41,988 nucleotides of DNA. It comes from Candidatus Zixiibacteriota bacterium. GTDB taxonomy: Bacteria > Zixibacteria > MSB-5A5 > GN15 > PGXB01. How positions within the stretch are numbered: the stretch's first letter is position 1; each line of letters starts with the position of its first letter. Below the pieces are notes generated by a model that saw only the letters and a list, made by a program, of their open reading frames with translations, ran no database searches and was not told where the DNA came from. The stretch is from assembly GCA_900498245.1 (NCBI GenBank), contig LS998015.1, forward strand, positions 572,478 through 614,465. Reading direction: 5' to 3'. The position numbers and the translations under genes are program-made. Of this stretch, positions 18,917 to 27,127 are shown piece by piece.

Positions 18917-19447
18917 ATGAAATTGAATGTAAAAGAACTCATTTTAACCCTGTTTGCGGTGGCGCTGGCGGGAGCGGTTTTCGGCCAGGAGGTTCCGGCC
19001 AAGGCCGATTTTATTCTGAAGGCGATTGATGAAGTCACCTGGCCGGCCGACAAAGCCACCGGGACGGTCGTGATAACGGTCGTGGGGGAAACACCTCTTA
19101 AAGCGGCTCTTGAAAAGGATGCGGCTAAGGGGACCCCGGGGGGCAAGAAAATAGAAGTACGTTTCGCCGCCCCGACCGACGATTTAACCGGCTCGCAGGT
19201 GGTTGTCATAGGTGTCAAGCAATTGACCGATCTGGCCGCGGTGCTGAAGAAACTGAACGGTCAGCCGGTTTTGACGGTAAGTGATAACGGCACTTTTGCC
19301 GGTTTCGGCGTGATGATCGACTTTCTCAAGGATAAGCCGAGTAACGGCGCTCCGGTCAGTTATGCCTTAAATAAAATGTCGATGAAGGAATCGGGTCTCA
19401 AGCCGGGTGAGAATATCGTGAAGATGGCCGCGAAGACGTACGGATGA
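18917..19447 (+). CDS. YfiR/HmsC-like periplasmic protein (DUF4154)
   Basis: A 176-residue exported protein. In-frame ATGs lie at 18893, 18899 and 18917; the last gives the cleanest signal peptide (MKLNVKELILTLFAVALAGAVFGQ) and has a purine-rich stretch just upstream. The mature part follows the YfiR family: KADFILKAIDEVTWP, an ITVVGETPL strand, VRFAAPTDDLTGSQVVVIG, PVLTVSDNGTFAGFGVMIDFL, and a C-terminal helix ENIVKMAAKTYG. YfiR proteins repress diguanylate cyclases of the YfiN type from the periplasm, and relatives occur with many sensor systems. No diguanylate cyclase is adjacent; an HD-GYP protein is encoded about 15 kb away, which is not evidence of a link. Confidence 0.7.
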   Translation: MKLNVKELILTLFAVALAGAVFGQEVPAKADFILKAIDEVTWPADKATGTVVITVVGETPLKAALEKDAAKGTPGGKKIEVRFAAPTDDLTGSQVVVIGVKQLTDLAAVLKKLNGQPVLTVSDNGTFAGFGVMIDFLKDKPSNGAPVSYALNKMSMKESGLKPGENIVKMAAKTYG

Positions 19448-19463
19448 TAGCGAATAAATTCTA

Positions 19464-19499
19464 ACAAAAAAACCCGCCTTGAAAGGCGGGTTTTTTTGT
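19464..19499. terminator. Bidirectional terminator between yfiR-like gene and trpB2
   Basis: ACAAAAAAACCCGCCTT and its near-exact complement form a stem with GC-rich core CCCGCC/GGCGGG and long A and T runs on either side. It can end both the plus-strand YfiR-like transcript and the minus-strand trpB2 transcript. Confidence 0.9.
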
Positions 19500-19517
19500 G
19501 CAAGGATAATCATCGGC

Positions 19518-20873
19518 TCAAACTTTCGGCAGGCCGGCCGCGATATTCTTCACTTGCTCCTCCGTAAAATCGGCATCTTCGAGCGTTCCGGTGAGATATT
19601 TTTCATAGGCGGTCAGGTCGAAATAGCCGTGTCCGCTGAGACAAAAGGCGATAGTTTTCTTCTCGCCCGATTCTTTGCACCGGAGGGCCTCGTTGACGGC
19701 GACGCGAATGGCATGGGCGCTTTCCGGAGCCGGCAGGATTCCCTCGGTGTGGGCGAAAAGGACGGCGGCATCGAAAACATCCTTCTGCCTGACCGCTACC
19801 GCTTCAATCACTTTCTGATCATAGAGGTGGCAAAGAAGCGGGGCATCGCCATGGTACCGCAGGCCGCCGGCGTGGATGGCGGCCGGAACGAAGGAATGCC
19901 CGAGGGTGTGCATTTTCACGAGCGGCGTCAATCCGACGGTATCGCCGAAATCGTAGCGATAAAGCCCTTTGGTCAGAGAAGGGCAGGCGGTCGGCTCCAC
20001 GGCTATAAGGCGGATATTTCCCCCATTTTTCATCTTATCGCCGGCGAAAGGAAAAACGAAGCCGGAGAAATTGCTTCCGCCGCCGACGCACCCGATCATG
20101 ATATCCGGGGATTCATCGATTTTCTCGAACTGTTTTTTGGTCTCCAGGCCGACCACGGTCTGATGAAGCAGGACATGGCTCAGGACCGACCCGAGGGCGT
20201 ACTTGGTGTCATCATGTTTGGCGGCATCTTCGACCGCCTCGCTGATGGCGATCCCCAGACTGCCGGGGGAATCGGGTGATTCCGAGAGGACTTTGCAGCC
20301 GGAGTCGGTGAGATTGGTGGGGCTGGGGTGGACCTCGGCTCCCCAGGTTTCCATGAGGAGACGGCGGTATGGTTTCTGATTATAACTTACTTTGACCATG
20401 TAGACGGTACAATCGAGTCCAAAAATGCGGCAGGCAAAAGAGAGGGCGCTTCCCCATTGCCCGGCCCCGGTCTCGGTGGCCAGTCGCCTGACCCCTTCCA
20501 TTTTATTGTAGTATGCCTGCGGGACGGCGGTGTTCGGTTTGTGGCTCCCCGACTGGCTCACCGATTCATTTTTGAAATATATTTTGGCCGGAGTGCCGAG
20601 GGCCTTTTCCAAGCGGCGGGCGCGGTGCAGAGGGGTGGGGCGCCAGAGACGATAGGCATCGCGCACCGGCTCGGGTATTTCGATGAATCTCTCCTGACTG
20701 ACCTCCTGCTTGATAAGTTCCATCGGGAAGAGCGGCGCCAGGTCGGCAGGGCCGATCGGTTTCAAGGTGCCCGGGTGCAGGGGCGGTGCCAGAGGGGTGG
20801 GAAGATCGGCCTGAATGTTGTACCAGGCGCGGGGGATTTCATCTTCCGTCAACAGGATTTTATTGGTGTCCAC
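19518..20873 (-). CDS. trpB2: Tryptophan synthase beta chain, TrpB2 type
   Basis: A 451-residue PLP enzyme that condenses indole with serine or O-phosphoserine to give tryptophan. The start is a GTG at 20873 with GGAGG five bases upstream. TrpB2 rather than TrpB1 is shown by length (TrpB1 is about 400), the extended N-terminus, [13 protein letters not shown], the PLP lysine in SGSHKPNTA, the [14 protein letters not shown] block, [10 protein letters not shown] for the PLP phosphate, and [12 protein letters not shown]. TrpB2 enzymes do not normally form the complex with TrpA and are thought to salvage indole; at least one archaeal TrpB2 prefers O-phospho-L-serine (published work, recalled). No trpA or other trp gene is nearby. 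It lies 31 bases after the SerK-like gene, in one transcript behind the Trp attenuator. Confidence 0.92.
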
Positions 20874-20904
20874 TATGACCTCCAGGGGTATATGTTAATA
20901 TATT

Positions 20905-21792
20905 TCATTCATCGAAACGAAAAGTCGGTTCCTGATAGAACCGGATCGCCTTGGCCAGGACCATCTTGTGAATCATTTCGGTCAGCCAGCGGTTTTTTTC
21001 ATCGAGGGTCAAATCGGATTTCAAAAATTCGAGCCGGATATTGAGGCCCAAAGCCCGTTTGGGCAGAAGGACCCGCGTGATGCCGGCCGGGAGTTTGCGT
21101 CCGGCCAGAACTATTTTTTCCACTTCGTCGATGCAGAACCGCCGAAAAGTTATCAGGGTCCGGAATTCGGGATAGTTTATTTTCAAATGCTCGAAATTGG
21201 CATAGCTGACCCGGTCGGAGTTGCCGGTATCGAGATAGAGATCGGTCAATTTTTTCAGATGGCTCAATTGATCCAGCAGGTCGCCGCCGTTATAGGCGGC
21301 GTAGGTCTCGCCGTTTTCGAAAAGGAACTGACAGAGATACCCGTCGCGGGCGTGCTCGGGATTACACTCCGAATCATCGCTGTTACGGGCCGCCTGCGCC
21401 GGTTCGGTTTTTTGCAGGCGGATCTCGGTCATTCCGGAAATATGATGCAGAAAATAATCCGGCCCGAGTTTTTCGACGGCATGATGCCAGCAACGGATTT
21501 CCAGGCCGGGGTCATCGGGATGAACCACCTGCACGGGGATATTTTCATATTTCAATTTTTTCAGGGCGGTGACCCGATTGGCTCCGTCGAGGATAATAAA
21601 GCGCCGACCATGATCGGCGACGGCGACAATAGGCGGGTTCTTTAAGATGCCTTCGGCTCCGAGCCGATTCACCAAATTTAAGAGCCGCCCCTCATCGGGG
21701 TCTTCGTGGAACATGAGACTATCGACATGAAGGACCCTTAGATCGGGCAATTCACCGATTTTCAGGTGATTGTTTTTGTTTTCCTCATTCAA
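20905..21792 (-). CDS. ParB/Srx-fold protein, SerK/SbnI-like (putative free serine kinase)
   Basis: A 295-residue cytoplasmic protein. The start is a TTG at 21792 with AGAGGT at 21803-21798. Residues 19-105 fit the ParB/sulfiredoxin fold as found in SerK (archaeal) and SbnI (staphylococcal), which phosphorylate free L-serine to O-phosphoserine: VDSLMFHED with Glu30 at the position of the catalytic glutamate, GILKNPPIVAV, and nucleotide-binding LDGANRVTALKKL (Asp69-Arg73). The segment ending LEIRCWHH also fits. Ordinary ParB features (helix-turn-helix, CTP-binding GERR box) are absent. The C-terminal 190 residues are unrecognised. It is the first gene of the operon with trpB2, whose co-substrate may be phosphoserine. 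A transcriptional-regulator role is the alternative. Confidence 0.68.
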   Translation of the reverse strand: MNEENKNNHLKIGELPDLRVLHVDSLMFHEDPDEGRLLNLVNRLGAEGILKNPPIVAVADHGRRFIILDGANRVTALKKLKYENIPVQVVHPDDPGLEIRCWHHAVEKLGPDYFLHHISGMTEIRLQKTEPAQAARNSDDSECNPEHARDGYLCQFLFENGETYAAYNGGDLLDQLSHLKKLTDLYLDTGNSDRVSYANFEHLKINYPEFRTLITFRRFCIDEVEKIVLAGRKLPAGITRVLLPKRALGLNIRLEFLKSDLTLDEKNRWLTEMIHKMVLAKAIRFYQEPTFRFDE

Positions 21793-21860
21793 AGGTGACC
21801 TCTTGATGTCCGGGATTAATTGCTTTTCATTTCATTTCGGCTTTTGCGGCAAATAAAAAA

Positions 21861-21942
21861 GGCGGGAACGCCGATTTAAGGTATTCCCGCCGAGGAAATT
21901 TATATATACCGGTGGGTATACCTAAGCCATACCCCACCACCA
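21861..21942 (-). promoter_or_regulatory. Trp transcription attenuator
   Basis: Four segments, in transcript order: 1 (21938-21929) overlaps the Trp codons; 2 (21922-21910); 3 (21892-21880); 4 (21872-21861). Segment 1 pairs with 2 over nine pairs with one bulged G. Segment 2 pairs with 3 at 11 of 13 positions (antiterminator). Segment 3 pairs with 4 at 11 of 12 counting one G-U (terminator), followed by six U at 21860-21855. A ribosome stalled on the Trp codons would cover segment 1 and free 2 to pair with 3, so transcription continues into the serK-like and trpB2 genes when tryptophan is scarce. I checked the pairings by hand. Confidence 0.85.
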
Positions 21943-21981
21943 ATTTACGTTATTCAGGATTTGGTTTTTGCAATTGCTCAT
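21922..21981 (-). CDS. trpL: Trp leader peptide
   Basis: A 19-residue ORF reading MSNCKNQILNNVNWWWGMA, with three consecutive TGG codons at 21942-21934 and a TAG stop at 21924-21922. It starts about ten bases after the predicted transcription start, with AGAG just upstream of the ATG. Trp is encoded by a single codon and is rare, so three in a row in so short an ORF directly before a terminator and a tryptophan synthase gene is the classic arrangement of a leader peptide that senses charged tRNA-Trp. The stop codon lies at the edge of RNA segment 2, as expected for attenuation control. Confidence 0.85.
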   Translation of the reverse strand: MSNCKNQILNNVNWWWGMA

Positions 21982-21996
21982 AATTAACTCTTCGAA

Positions 21997-22024
21997 AATA
22001 TACCAAAAACAGGACAAAAGTCAA
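21997..22024 (-). promoter_or_regulatory. Promoter of the trpL-serK-trpB2 operon
   Basis: On the minus strand TTGACT (22024-22019) and TATATT (22002-21997), each 5 of 6 to consensus, are spaced by 16 bases. Transcription would begin near 21990, immediately before the leader peptide. Confidence 0.7.
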
Positions 22025-22172
22025 GCGGTTTTCTTGCAGGCCGCCATAGGTTGTCGTAACTGTTTGATAATAAATAAAATAACAAAAAACGCCGGTGGAG
22101 CCGAATTGTTTTAATATGGACTGCTATTGACTATATTAAGTCGCTATGCCGCAATATGTTAGATATTAATTT

Positions 22173-22215
22173 CGGGGAATTATGCCCCACCGGGGTGAAA
22201 TTCCCCGGAGTTTTT
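22173..22215 (+). terminator. Strong orphan hairpin with T-run, plus strand
   Basis: CGGGGAATT (22173-22181) pairs perfectly with AATTCCCCG (22199-22207), with an inner CCCC/GGGG pair, followed by GAG and five T. No plus-strand gene ends before it. It may end a small RNA or be a premature terminator in the leader of the redox operon. The rest of 21985-22430 holds the trp promoter, AT-rich sequence and a loose repeat of TGCAATT type; I see no gene there. Confidence 0.5.
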
Positions 22216-22430
22216 GTCGCAAGTCTCACTTTCAAATGACTTTGACTTGAAAACGGCCCCGGCCGCCATGCCCATTATAGCATTATTCCTCAACGAGTTA
22301 GAGTCGGTGAATTGCAAACTACATAACTCCAATATCAATTGTCTCTTGATCTGCAATTGCGGTACAGCGGTTGCTTTGCCCTATTCTGTTATTTGTGACC
22401 TGTAGGCACCATTAATTTTAGACCGGGTGA

Positions 22431-22868
22431 TTGAGAGGGAGAGAAAGTGGTTCGGCGGTATCAGGACTGCCCCACATTATTTATAGACTGCGGGCCGGAT
22501 CGGGGGGGGGATTTCTGACTAACCGGCCTGTCAGGAAATCCGACAAACCGGAATCTTCTCCGGCCCCCAAACCGGAAGAGGAAAGACCGGCCGGACTTTG
22601 TTCGGTTTGCATTCATTCTTCCACCTGCGCGTATCTCAAATCTCACAAAGAAGGGGCGATTTTCTGCGAAATGTTCGAAGGGGAAGATCCTGATTCCTCG
22701 AAGGGGAAAATCGACGGCCCGGCGGTGGCGTTTCGTTCCGCCGCCAATGTTGCCGACCCCGAGAAGATTTATCAGGGCTTATGTGTCAACTGTTTTCATC
22801 GCACCCGATGCTCGTTAGCGACATCCCACGGCGGTGTCTGGCACTGCGAGGAGTACCAATTGGAATGA
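22431..22868 (+). CDS. Small protein with two CxxC-x5-C-x(11-12)-CE motifs
   Basis: Up to 145 residues. The start is uncertain. TTG at 22431 opens the frame but has a poor site. A GTG at 22447 has a good GGGAG site but is one frame off, and its frame closes at 22516-22518 just after a run of nine G (22502-22510). One extra base in that run would join the GTG to the downstream frame. The body has a Pro/Glu-rich linker and two copies of a cysteine motif, GLCSVCIHSSTC...FCEMF and GLCVNCFHRTRC...HCEEY, each with four Cys. The same motif opens the next protein. A metal or Fe-S site is likely, but the family is not known to me. It is the first gene of the redox operon. Confidence 0.65.
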   Translation: MRGRESGSAVSGLPHIIYRLRAGSGGGFLTNRPVRKSDKPESSPAPKPEEERPAGLCSVCIHSSTCAYLKSHKEGAIFCEMFEGEDPDSSKGKIDGPAVAFRSAANVADPEKIYQGLCVNCFHRTRCSLATSHGGVWHCEEYQLE

Positions 22869-22959
22869 AGATAAAAAATTTTTCAATAACGTCCGTCGGT
22901 ATAGCGGGCGCCAGTAAATTTTTTAAAACACCTGAGGATGACTCGGAGGAGGAATCGTA

Positions 22960-23901
22960 ATGACGTCAGTCCAAGATACTTCCGGTCTCTGCTCGACCTG
23001 TAATTTCGCCCCGAATTGCGTTTACAGGCAGGGTCGGGAAGGGCCGGTGCAATATTGTGAAATGTTTGCCGAGATAATCGAACAGCATACCGGCACTCAG
23101 GGAGGCTTGATTGCCACCCTGGAGGAGATTCAGGCCCGCTACGGCTATCTTCACCCGGAAGCGCTGAAGATGGTGGCGGAAAAGTCGGGCCGTTCCCTGG
23201 TCGATGTTTACGGTGTGGCCACTTTTTACCGGGCCTTCAGTTTGAAACCACGGGGAAAGCATCTCGTTTCGGTTTGTCTCGGCACCGCCTGCCATGTGCG
23301 CGGCGGTCCGACAATCGCCCGGGAACTGGAACGGCAACTCGGTATCAGCGCCGGTCAAACAACGCCCGATAATGAATTCACGCTGGAAACGGTCAATTGC
23401 CTGGGGGCATGCGCCCTGGGACCGATCGTGGTTATCGACGGTCACTATTTTTCCAAAGTGAAAACGACGATGGTCGGGGAGATTCTGGACCGGGCCCGGA
23501 GCGGTCTGGACAAGATCGAGATTATCACCGATCAGAGAATTTTCCCGATCGAAGTGAGTTGCGCCCGGTGCAACCACAGCCTGATGGACCCGCGTCATCC
23601 GATCGACGGTCACCCGGCGATACGGGTGACGGTGGCGTTCGAGCAGAAGCACGGCTGGCTGGCGCTTTCCAGTCTGTACGGCAGTTACAATACGGCGTCC
23701 GAGTATGAAATTCCGCCCGATACCGATTTGCAGTTTTTCTGTCCGCATTGCCATGCCGAACTGATCGGCGGCGCCAGTTGCACCGAATGCGGCGCGCCGA
23801 TGATCCCGATGATCGTCCGGGGCGGCGGTATCGTGCAAATCTGTTCGCGGCGCGGCTGCAAAGGGCACATGTTGGATTTGAGCGGGGCGCTCGTTCTCTG
23901 A
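22960..23901 (+). CDS. NuoE/HydC-like [2Fe-2S] subunit with extra N- and C-terminal cysteine domains
   Basis: A 313-residue protein, about twice the usual NuoE length. GGAGG lies seven bases upstream. Residues 9-40 repeat the cysteine motif of the preceding gene (GLCSTCNFAPNC...YCEMF). Residues 45-190 are a NuoE-type thioredoxin-fold domain: LEEIQARYGYLHPEAL, GVATFYRAFSLKPRGKH, then the four [2Fe-2S] ligands in CLGTACHVRG and CLGACALGP. The C-terminal 120 residues carry zinc-ribbon-like pairs: CARC, FFCPHCH, CTEC and CSRRGC. NuoE partners deliver electrons between the NuoF flavin and other clusters in NADH-dependent hydrogenases, formate dehydrogenases and transhydrogenases. The adjacent NuoF-GltD gene supports that role here. 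Confidence 0.82.
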   Translation: MTSVQDTSGLCSTCNFAPNCVYRQGREGPVQYCEMFAEIIEQHTGTQGGLIATLEEIQARYGYLHPEALKMVAEKSGRSLVDVYGVATFYRAFSLKPRGKHLVSVCLGTACHVRGGPTIARELERQLGISAGQTTPDNEFTLETVNCLGACALGPIVVIDGHYFSKVKTTMVGEILDRARSGLDKIEIITDQRIFPIEVSCARCNHSLMDPRHPIDGHPAIRVTVAFEQKHGWLALSSLYGSYNTASEYEIPPDTDLQFFCPHCHAELIGGASCTECGAPMIPMIVRGGGIVQICSRRGCKGHMLDLSGALVL

Positions 23902-23938
23902 GCGACGGCGGCTTATGCAATTAGGAGGAATTAATTAA

Positions 23939-26900
23939 ATGAAACGACTCAATACACTCGATGAATTCATTGACTTCCGCCGCCGGATCATGGCTGAAAA
24001 AGAAATTCAGTATGATAAGCCGACCCTGGTCATTTGCGCCGGAACCGGCGGGCAGGCCAGCGGATCCAATGATATCATCCGCATCATCAAAAAATATTTT
24101 CTCGATAAGGGTCTTCAGGATAAACTCGGTTTCCGGATCACCGGATGTCAGGGCTTCTGCGAGATGGACCCGTTTATCGTGGTTCAGCCGGGGCGCCATC
24201 TTTACCCGAAATTGAAGATGGAGGATGTGCCGCGCGTAATCGAGGCGGCGCTCTCGGGAAAAGTCGACGAGGGCCTACTTTATAAGGAGCCGAGAACCCT
24301 AGCGGTCTGTCACAGTCAGAACGACATTCCGTTTTTCCAGAAGCAGACGCGGACGATTCTCGGCAACAACGAGAAACTCGATCCGATCCGGATCCTGGAT
24401 TATATCGAGCAGGGCGGTTATGCCGCTCTGGAAAAGGCGATGAAAAGGAACAATCCCGACTGGATTGTCAACGAGGTCCTTAATTCCGGTTTGCGCGGAC
24501 GCGGCGGGGCCGGATTCCCGACCGGGAGAAAGTGGCAGTTGGCCCGGGCCTCGGGCAAAAGCGGCGGGCAGAAATATGTGGTCTGCAACGCCGATGAAGG
24601 CGATCCCGGTGCTTATATGGATCGGTCGCTTCTCGAGGGGAATCCTCATGCCATAATCGAGGGGATGCTGATCGCCGGCATGGCGATCGGGGCCACGCAG
24701 GGGTTTATCTATGTCCGAAGCGAATATCCGCTGGCCATCAAGCATACCCTGATTGCCTTAAGGCAGGCGCGCGACCTGGGCCTTCTGGGCAAAAATATTC
24801 TCGGCTCCGGGGTGGAGTTCAATATCGATATCGTCCGCGGCGCCGGGGCCTTTGTCTGCGGTGAAGAGACCGCGCTTATCAAATCGGTCGAAGGGTTCAT
24901 GGGCGAACCGCGGCAGCGTCCGCCTTATCCGATCGAAAAGGGTATCGGCGGTCACCCGACCTGCATCAACAATGTCGAGACACTGGCCAATATCCCGGTC
25001 ATTATCAGCCGCGGGGCCGAGGAGTACGCCAAGGTCGGTGTCCCCGGAAATACCGGCACCAAGATTTTCTCGCTGGTGGGGAAAATCAAGAATACCGGTC
25101 TGGTGGAAGTTCCGCTCGGTATCAAAATAAGCGATGTCGTGTATGATATCGGCGGCGGCCCGGTCGGAGAAGCCAAAATTAAGGCGGTACAGACCGGCGG
25201 CCCGTCGGGCGGTTGTATCCCGGCCAGCATGTTCGATCTGCCGATCGATTATGATTCTCTGGCCAAGGCCGGCTCCATCATGGGTTCCGGCGGTATGATC
25301 GTGATGGACGAGAACACCTGTATGGTCGATATCGCCAAATATTTCATGAGTTTCCTTAAAGACGAATCGTGCGGCAAATGTTTCACCTGCCGCAAGGGAA
25401 CGCAGAGGATGTATGAAATTCTCGACGATATCACCAAGGGTAAGGGAACGCTGGAACAACTGGATCTCCTCGAGGAACTGGCGCTGGTGGTCAAAGACAC
25501 GACGATGTGCGGTCTGGGGCAGTCGGCGCCCAATCCGGTTCTTTCGACCCTGAAGTATTTCCGGCAGGAGTATATCGAGCATATCGTCAACAAGCGGTGC
25601 CCGGCCGGAGTCTGCAAGGAACTGGTGGGAGCGCCCTGTCAGGCGGCGTGTCCGCTGGGGACCGAGGCCTGGCGCTATGTGGCGTATATCGCCCGGGGCG
25701 ATTTCGATGAAGCCTATCGGGTTATCCGCGAAGCCAATCCGTTCCCGTCGGTCTGCGCCCGGGTCTGCAACCATCCCTGCGAGAATAAATGCCGGGCCGG
25801 GGCCAGCGGCGGGGAATCGATTTCGATTCGGTCGCTGAAACGATTCGTGACCGATCGGACCGATCCGGCGTCATACATTCCGATCCGGCACCTGCGGGCC
25901 AATGAGGAATCGCCGCGTGTCGCGATTATCGGGGCCGGTCCCTCGGGATTGACGGCGGCGCACTATCTCTCGCTTCAGGGGTACAAGGTGACGGTGTTCG
26001 ATGCCGAGCAGAAGGCGGGGGGGATGATGTTTTCCGCCATTCCGGCGTACCGTCTCCCGCGTGAGGTCATCGAAAAAGAAATCAATGCTTTACTGGATGA
26101 AAATATCACTGTCAAATATAACTGCGCCCTCGGAAAAGATTTCACGGTCGACAGTCTTTTTGAGGAAGGGTTCAAGAGTGTTTACCTGGCCCTGGGGGCG
26201 CATCGCAGTATTCCTTTGAAGATCGACGGCGAGAACGCCGAAGGGGTTTACCCGTCGATACAGTTCTTGAGATCCTTCAATGTTTTCGGAAAGAAACTCG
26301 GCACCGGCGCGGTGGGCATAATCGGCGGGGGCAATTCGGCGGTCGATGCCGCCCGGGTGGCGCTTCGCCAGGAAGATGTCACCGGCGTGACCATCTTCTA
26401 CCGCCGGACCCGTCATGAAATGCCGGCTTTCGAAGAAGAAATCGAAGCGGCCGAACAGGAAGGGGTGGAACTGAAAACACTGACAGCTCCGCTCAAAATT
26501 CTAACGACGGGAGGTCGGCTCACCGGCCTGCAGTGCCAACGCAATGTTCTCGGTGAACCGGATGCCAGCGGCCGGCGCCGTCCTATCCCGGTTCAGGGAA
26601 GCGAATTTGTCGTCCCGCTCGATACCCTGATCGTCGCCATCAGCGAAGGTTCCGATATCGATTGCCTGGAGGTCGCCGGTCAGATGAAAATCGAAGTGGA
26701 TGAACGGTCCAGCACGGTCAAGGTCGATTCCGAGACGCTCTGCACCAATCGTCCCGGTGTCTTTGCCGGCGGTGATCTGGTGACCGGGCCCAATACGATT
26801 GTCGACGCCATAGCGGCGGGCAAGCGGGCCGCGGTAATGATTGACCGGTATGTCCGCGGCGTGGAACTCAAGCAGCCGGCGGCGGTTCGTCTGCCGAAGA

Positions 26901-27127
26901 TTTATGTTCCGCCGGTGGTGGTGGAAGAGGAGGTCGCGACGGCCCCGCGGGTGGAAACGCCCCGGGCGGCGGTGCAGTGGCGCCGGCGCGGTTTCGCCGA
27001 AGTGGAGATGTCGCTGACGGTTCGGGAAGCGGCGCGCGAGGCCCTGCGGTGCCTGCGCTGCGATCTCGATTTCACCCGCCCCAAAGAAAAGGCGCAACCG
27101 GAACGAATGGAAGTAGAGGTGAAATGA
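23939..27127 (+). CDS. NuoF/HydB-GltD fusion flavoprotein
   Basis: A 1062-residue protein with AGGAGG upstream. Residues 1-120 are the thioredoxin-like domain that opens HydB-type NuoF proteins; GCQGFCEMDPF is kept, but the usual CxGTGC motif reads CAGTGG (Cys33, Gly38). Residues 125-545 are NuoF: GRGGAGFPTGRKW (NADH/FMN) near 185, CNADEGDPGAYMDR, and the [4Fe-4S] site SCGKCFTCRKG near 476 with a later TMCG. Residues 550-1040 are a GltD/NfnB-type NAD(P)H flavoprotein: Fe-S cysteines in CQAACPLG and CARVCNHPCENKC, FAD motif GAGPSGLTAAHYL near 664, NADPH motif GGGNSAVDAAR near 795, and GGDLVTGPNTIVDAI. The fusion joins an NADH site to a second pyridine-nucleotide site, as in Stn/Nfn-type electron-bifurcating transhydrogenases. 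Confidence 0.88.
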   Translation: MKRLNTLDEFIDFRRRIMAEKEIQYDKPTLVICAGTGGQASGSNDIIRIIKKYFLDKGLQDKLGFRITGCQGFCEMDPFIVVQPGRHLYPKLKMEDVPRVIEAALSGKVDEGLLYKEPRTLAVCHSQNDIPFFQKQTRTILGNNEKLDPIRILDYIEQGGYAALEKAMKRNNPDWIVNEVLNSGLRGRGGAGFPTGRKWQLARASGKSGGQKYVVCNADEGDPGAYMDRSLLEGNPHAIIEGMLIAGMAIGATQGFIYVRSEYPLAIKHTLIALRQARDLGLLGKNILGSGVEFNIDIVRGAGAFVCGEETALIKSVEGFMGEPRQRPPYPIEKGIGGHPTCINNVETLANIPVIISRGAEEYAKVGVPGNTGTKIFSLVGKIKNTGLVEVPLGIKISDVVYDIGGGPVGEAKIKAVQTGGPSGGCIPASMFDLPIDYDSLAKAGSIMGSGGMIVMDENTCMVDIAKYFMSFLKDESCGKCFTCRKGTQRMYEILDDITKGKGTLEQLDLLEELALVVKDTTMCGLGQSAPNPVLSTLKYFRQEYIEHIVNKRCPAGVCKELVGAPCQAACPLGTEAWRYVAYIARGDFDEAYRVIREANPFPSVCARVCNHPCENKCRAGASGGESISIRSLKRFVTDRTDPASYIPIRHLRANEESPRVAIIGAGPSGLTAAHYLSLQGYKVTVFDAEQKAGGMMFSAIPAYRLPREVIEKEINALLDENITVKYNCALGKDFTVDSLFEEGFKSVYLALGAHRSIPLKIDGENAEGVYPSIQFLRSFNVFGKKLGTGAVGIIGGGNSAVDAARVALRQEDVTGVTIFYRRTRHEMPAFEEEIEAAEQEGVELKTLTAPLKILTTGGRLTGLQCQRNVLGEPDASGRRRPIPVQGSEFVVPLDTLIVAISEGSDIDCLEVAGQMKIEVDERSSTVKVDSETLCTNRPGVFAGGDLVTGPNTIVDAIAAGKRAAVMIDRYVRGVELKQPAAVRLPKIYVPPVVVEEEVATAPRVETPRAAVQWRRRGFAEVEMSLTVREAAREALRCLRCDLDFTRPKEKAQPERMEVEVK

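Follow-up and report, generated by a model that had tools for sequence, protein, structure and literature searches.

A putative tryptophan attenuator before serK-like and trpB2 genes points to a probable indole-salvage operon induced by tryptophan shortage

Here we describe a tryptophan attenuator, almost certainly a genuine one of the ribosome-mediated type as judged from its sequence, that stands before a serK-like gene and trpB2 in a window of 41,988 nucleotides (the whole stretch of DNA analysed) from a 3.5-Mb genome in one contig (G000). The reading that we favour, and consider probable, is that ribosome-mediated attenuation governs an indole-salvage operon for a SerK-like protein and TrpB2, which would be induced by tryptophan shortage. 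The route from SerK to TrpB2 we hold with less assurance, as a fairly likely one predicted from the genes: the SerK-like enzyme would convert serine to O-phospho-L-serine, which TrpB2 would combine with indole to yield tryptophan.

Both genes lie on the minus strand. The serK-like gene (20905..21792, 295 aa), identified by profiles, predicted fold and residue alignment, starts at a TTG that carries an AGAGG ribosome site, and trpB2 (19518..20873, 451 aa), identified by profiles over cut-off, follows 31 nt past its end. Because the flanking ORFs on both sides lie on the opposite strand, the pair looks like a two-gene operon. Upstream, also on the minus strand, a sigma-70-type promoter (21997..22024) combines a -35 box TTGACT (22024-22019) and a -10 box TATATT (22002-21997) across a 16-nt spacer with an extended TG; it matches the consensus at 10 of 12 positions, the top promoter match within 19000-25000, and all six other genomes with the leader have similar boxes, TTGAC(A/T)...TAT(A/C)TT, 5’ of it. 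Transcription would begin at about 21990. If the start lies 7 nt past the -10 box, only about 9 nt of leader mRNA would precede its ATG (window 21981-21997), leaving hardly any room for a Shine-Dalgarno site, which the leader may largely or wholly lack; a similarly short 5’ stretch precedes the leader ATG in three relatives (G001, G004 and G097).

The leader ORF (21922..21981, minus strand) has 19 codons from ATG to TAG, encodes MSNCKNQILNNVNWWWGMA and ends in WWWGMA; WWW and its 18-nt distance from the TAG stop are invariant in seven genomes. Three tandem Trp (UGG) codons at 21934..21942 form the predicted sensing site, recognized from the sequence and the seven-genome comparison. They are overlapped by segment 1 (GGUGGGGUAU; 21929..21938), which in folding is the partner of segment 2 as long as no ribosome sits on it. 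Segment 2 (GGUAUACCCACCG; 21910..21922), defined by pairing, folding and shuffle tests, has the G of the leader’s stop codon as its first base. By pairing and folding, segment 3 (CGGCGGGAAUACC; 21880..21892) supplies both the 3’ arm of the antiterminator and the 5’ arm of the terminator, and segment 4 (GGCGUUCCCGCC) with its six U (21855..21872) supplies the terminator 3’ arm and U-run. All four segments are on the minus strand. The terminator, GGCGGGAAUACC-loop-GGCGUUCCCGCC plus UUUUUU at 21891-21855, has 11 of 12 possible pairs; the antiterminator, segment 2 (21922-21910) with segment 3 (21892-21880), has 10 of 12 computed core pairs, or 11 of 13 counting an outer G-C pair read off the sequence. 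Segment 3 can pair with segment 2 or with segment 4, never with both, and serK starts 62 nt past the U-run. A sequence-only reading of this DNA had reported the promoter, the 19-codon leader with three Trp codons and both helices, and every one of its counts recurs here.

This is the layout of a ribosome-mediated Trp attenuator: a promoter is followed by a leader ORF with tandem Trp codons, the 2:3 antiterminator excludes the 3:4 terminator with its U-run, and a stalled ribosome leaves segment 2 free while one at the stop codon masks it. When Trp-tRNA is scarce, the leader ribosome would stall on the three UGG codons with its front edge 2-5 nt before segment 2, allowing segments 2 and 3 to pair; no terminator would form, and serK-trpB2 would be transcribed. 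When tryptophan is plentiful, the ribosome would run on to the UAG, where it would hide about 11 nt of segment 2; segments 3 and 4 would form the terminator, and transcription would end near 21855. Translation of the leader and termination itself are what we infer from this arrangement.

The architecture is common to seven genomes from four families and always lies 5’ of trpB2 or serK-trpB2. Leader, WWW and stems are intact in three genomes of the window’s family (G000, G001 and G004), and outside it, in G083, G091 and G097, trpB2 itself follows the same leader directly, without an intervening serK. Trained on these six attenuators, a covariance model found the seventh blind (G119, 76 bits), before a trpB2 at 75% identity; against 132 genomes of the phylum it otherwise recovered only a decayed copy in G010 (38.7 bits), the rest scoring at most 34 bits. 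Matches below 35 bits were set aside; they resemble generic terminators, and those of their loci that were fetched encode no TrpB2 or SerK. The first Trp codon lies 18 nt from the leader stop codon and 20 nt from segment 2 in all seven genomes, though the codons and stems themselves vary. In G083, for example, segment 1 has changed to GGCAGA and segment 2 to UCUGCC, and the 1:2 pairing is kept. If the front edge of the ribosome is taken to lie 15 nt beyond the P site, stalling leaves segment 2 wholly uncovered in all seven (0 nt), and a ribosome at the stop codon covers 11 nt of it.

Masked folding, a check proposed in the sequence-only reading, gave the alternate states in every one of the seven genomes: with a stalled ribosome and an RNA ending at segment 3, the 2:3 helix forms at -13.8 to -18.5 kcal/mol, and with a ribosome at the leader stop the 3:4 helix forms. 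That reading had also proposed aligning leaders to look for conserved Trp codons and covarying stems; the codons are conserved, and the covariation is thin. Over the seven sequences the terminator stem is 91.7% paired, versus 45-52% when slid, and two of its pairs have changed on both sides; 3:4 has three double-changed cells. The 2:3 helix is conserved but has no double changes over these sequences, and shuffled controls score as high; covariation in 2:3, being no better than in shuffles, was dropped as support, and segment 3 is held by two partners.

A scan of both strands for ORFs of 7-50 codons that pack three or more Trp into six codons and are accompanied by an intrinsic terminator gave a single match in the window (42 kb) and 14 matches across 0.90 Mb comprising this and related loci; 12 of the 14 precede trpB2 or serK-trpB2. 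The same scan returned none in 1680 random windows, none in reverse complements and none in shuffles, and an RNA-model scan of the 3.5-Mb genome found one such element. As the plain fold z-score of the leader is modest (-1.7), the evidence is one of architecture and conservation, not of overall stability. No Rfam family, the T-box included, matched the leader at gathering score, and no Trp leader family was among the weak Rfam matches.

The family of the window has a SerK homologue in eight genomes, beside trpB2 in all eight. The sequence-only reading had named gene pairs lacking a leader as evidence against its proposal; such pairs occur in four relatives (G006, G007, G011 and G013). In a further relative, G010, the leader is destroyed and the terminator kept: upstream of serK (L005, at the contig end of G010:C203) a repeat-like stretch stands in place of the leader peptide before an intact terminator, which marks either an attenuator in decay or an assembly junction. 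The TrpB2 tree unites the attenuated genes with the serK-linked family in a single clade (support 97/89), inside which the serK family is nested (96/99). Because four genomes (G083, G091, G097 and G119) have the leader before trpB2 alone, the attenuator was apparently on trpB2 first and serK joined behind it later, once, in this family. The tree and these attenuators directly on trpB2 also make leader loss the simplest reading for the lineages of G006, G007, G011 and G013, with two or three losses on a tree of modest inner support. Comparative genomics thus supports a Trp attenuator linked to serK-trpB2, as had been claimed. The accompanying claim that both genes are tied to tryptophan supply holds most strongly for TrpB2; for SerK it draws on the gene’s place behind the attenuator and on separate SerK-TrpB2 pairings.

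TrpB2 is a clear member of its class, passing the cut-offs of NF009057 (736.7 against 366) and TIGR01415 (662.9 against 518.85), and is the only TrpB of the window’s genome. The sequence-only reading had noted no trpA and no other trp gene. A search of complete genome G000 for TrpA, TrpC and TrpE found no match, and all 14 control genomes were positive, which verifies the claim for these three. Among 98 genomes, TrpA is present in 1 of the 16 with TrpB2 versus 54 of the 82 without (Fisher p = 9e-6, not corrected for kinship), and the sole overlap, G031, is 8% contaminated. Gene content excludes TrpB2 as the last step of a normal pathway in the window’s genome, and from the absence of TrpA, TrpC and TrpE together with this near-exclusion it most likely uses free indole. 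O-phospho-L-serine is used by TrpB2 enzymes (Busch et al. 2014, as cited in PMC11917138) and, by analogy with the class, is the predicted substrate here. Possible sources of indole are the surroundings and the cell’s own tryptophan turnover via tryptophanase, in which case Trp could cycle through indole. Tryptophanase-related matches occur in 14 of 15 family genomes, including those without trp synthesis; in the window’s genome a tryptophanase is encoded at L177:1825-3228 (G000:C1:2529351-2530709; NF009709, 674 bits, cut-off 285). The absence of SerC was considered as support for SerK and proved uninformative, as most SerK-free relatives also lack a SerC model match.

Like the free serine kinases SbnI and SerK, the SerK-like protein has a full-length predicted fold (pLDDT 84.7) that matches them with E values of 1e-15 to 1e-17, the matches including 5x0j, a SerK E30Q mutant; profiles of SbnI and archaeal SerK likewise align with it from end to end. 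Its E30 and D69 correspond to E20 and D58 of SbnI, both required for kinase activity (PMC9641203). Unlike SbnI and SerK, with which it shares 17-25% identity, it has Asn for the His of their DG-x-H-R motif, is encoded with trpB2 and scores far below the NCBIfam equivalog cut-offs (79.6 against 350 for SbnI and 37.6 against 380 for SerK). As both scores fall short, we assign it to neither equivalog and describe it as a protein predicted to work like a free serine kinase; its residues and modelled fold make a kinase function likely. Distant SerK-fold paralogues in the same order (L012-L028), in which the DG or Glu motif is changed or gone, probably do something else. A literature search that covered few subscription papers found no published link of SerK with TrpB2.

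Trp leaders with terminators, unrelated in sequence, also precede trpB2 at L085, L094, L141 and L118, the lineages being a genome of the same order (G031), Gemmatimonadota, Calditrichota (Caldithrix) and a deltaproteobacterium. Each of the antiterminators outscored 498 to 500 of 500 shuffles, except for that of L085 (494 of 500). L097 (Bacteroidales) was rejected as a full attenuator: it has a leader and terminator, and an antiterminator no better than shuffles (152/500). In a Longimicrobiales genome (Gemmatimonadota), a leader of its own, with WWWW, and a terminator precede serK-trpB2; the order is trpS-trpB2-serK in two Chloroflexota (L060:3696-7335 and L087:3889-7771), with a methylguanine-methyltransferase-like ORF between trpB2 and serK in L087. 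Since serK is not adjacent to trpB2 in the four genomes outside the family that share the window’s attenuator, and was adjacent or one gene away in only 3 of 80 named TrpB2 loci and not in the other 77, TrpB2 does not always need SerK nearby. In an earlier survey, trp operons were the only conserved gene neighbourhood of trpB2 (PMC1854888). On balance we lean towards a history in which most of the family gave up de novo synthesis for a module of serine kinase and TrpB2, the attenuator being on trpB2 first and serK inserted later, and in which Gemmatimonadota, again with an attenuator, and Chloroflexota, with trpS, acquired the pairing separately. G002, of the same family, has kept classical trp genes and carries an aromatic leader of its own (...NYYWNSFYFWWYQLPND...) plus terminator just before trpE (L122:3757-4000); this leader is unrelated in sequence to the trpB2 leader.

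Several other explanations bear on these data. A constitutive terminator or a chance leader ORF would suit the modest overall fold z-score, and deserves practically no credence given that WWW, spacing and stems are kept in seven genomes and that 12 of the 14 scan matches in 0.9 Mb lie at trpB2. Arrest of the TnaC type, with a leader ribosome stalling on free Trp and induction by Trp excess instead of starvation, is very improbable: the Trp codons are close to the stop codon and the genome has a tryptophanase, but three tandem UGG codons, exclusive 2:3 and 3:4 hairpins, a U-run terminator and a stall spacing that frees segment 2 make up a starvation layout, and the target genes are synthetic, not degradative.

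The remaining alternatives accept the attenuator and concern the SerK-like protein. It might be a ligand-responsive regulator or another nucleotide binder of the ParB/Srx fold and no kinase for TrpB2, a possible but unlikely reading. SbnI has also been described as a heme-responsive regulator (PMC9641203), ParB-fold proteins differ in nucleotide and function, with a SerK-like archaeal protein having bound CTP (PMC12704722), and the equivalog scores are low; yet the fold matches the free serine kinases over its full length and ParB/Noc over only about 80 residues, E30 and D69 are intact in every trpB2-linked copy while several distant unlinked homologues have lost one, and the TrpB2 class uses the product of such a kinase. 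It is improbable that TrpB2 instead joins L-serine to indole and that SerK makes O-phosphoserine for cysteine or other metabolism, co-regulated by an accident of operon order. Thermococcus SerK does serve cysteine synthesis (PMC5120207), and attenuated trpB2 genes exist without a neighbouring serK, but this family, a Gemmatimonadota and Chloroflexota each have a separate pairing of serK with trpB2, which in Chloroflexota includes trpS.

Leader-peptide attenuators are a classic feature of proteobacterial trp operons. The sequence-only reading had presented attenuation in that light, which leaves out Actinobacteria, whose trp operons have attenuators too (PMC1262725), and Firmicutes, where a His leader has been described (PMC2965389). 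Like trp operon attenuators of proteobacteria and Actinobacteria, the element described here has a short ORF with tandem UGG codons, segments 1-4, an exclusive antiterminator and intrinsic terminator, and ribosome position as its predicted sensor; unlike them, it is found in another phylum and targets serK-trpB2 or trpB2 alone, not trpEDCBA. What sets these TrpB2 enzymes apart is control by a Trp attenuator and a genome that lacks TrpA, TrpC and TrpE. Bifidobacterium and Chlamydia likewise make tryptophan without relying on a full pathway, from indole or salvaged precursors, but with other genes and other regulation, and the abstracts of those reports describe no serine kinase partner (PMC11085991, PMC6504234).

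The mechanism is therefore a known one, and its operon target, its phylum, the repeated attenuation of trpB2 and the kinase-TrpB2 pairing appear to be new. TrpB2, long termed a “second” TrpB of unclear role, gains a regulatory signature of tryptophan supply in several phyla, and O-phosphoserine, its unusual substrate, gains a likely dedicated source in the SerK-like protein. The known range of leader-peptide Trp attenuation now takes in a candidate phylum, as well as other phyla for which our literature search found no report, and the attenuator outlives changes in the genes under its control. Elsewhere in the window, positions 23939-27127 encode a 1062-aa fusion of a NuoF-like with a GltD-like domain, beside a HoxE/NuoE-like protein.
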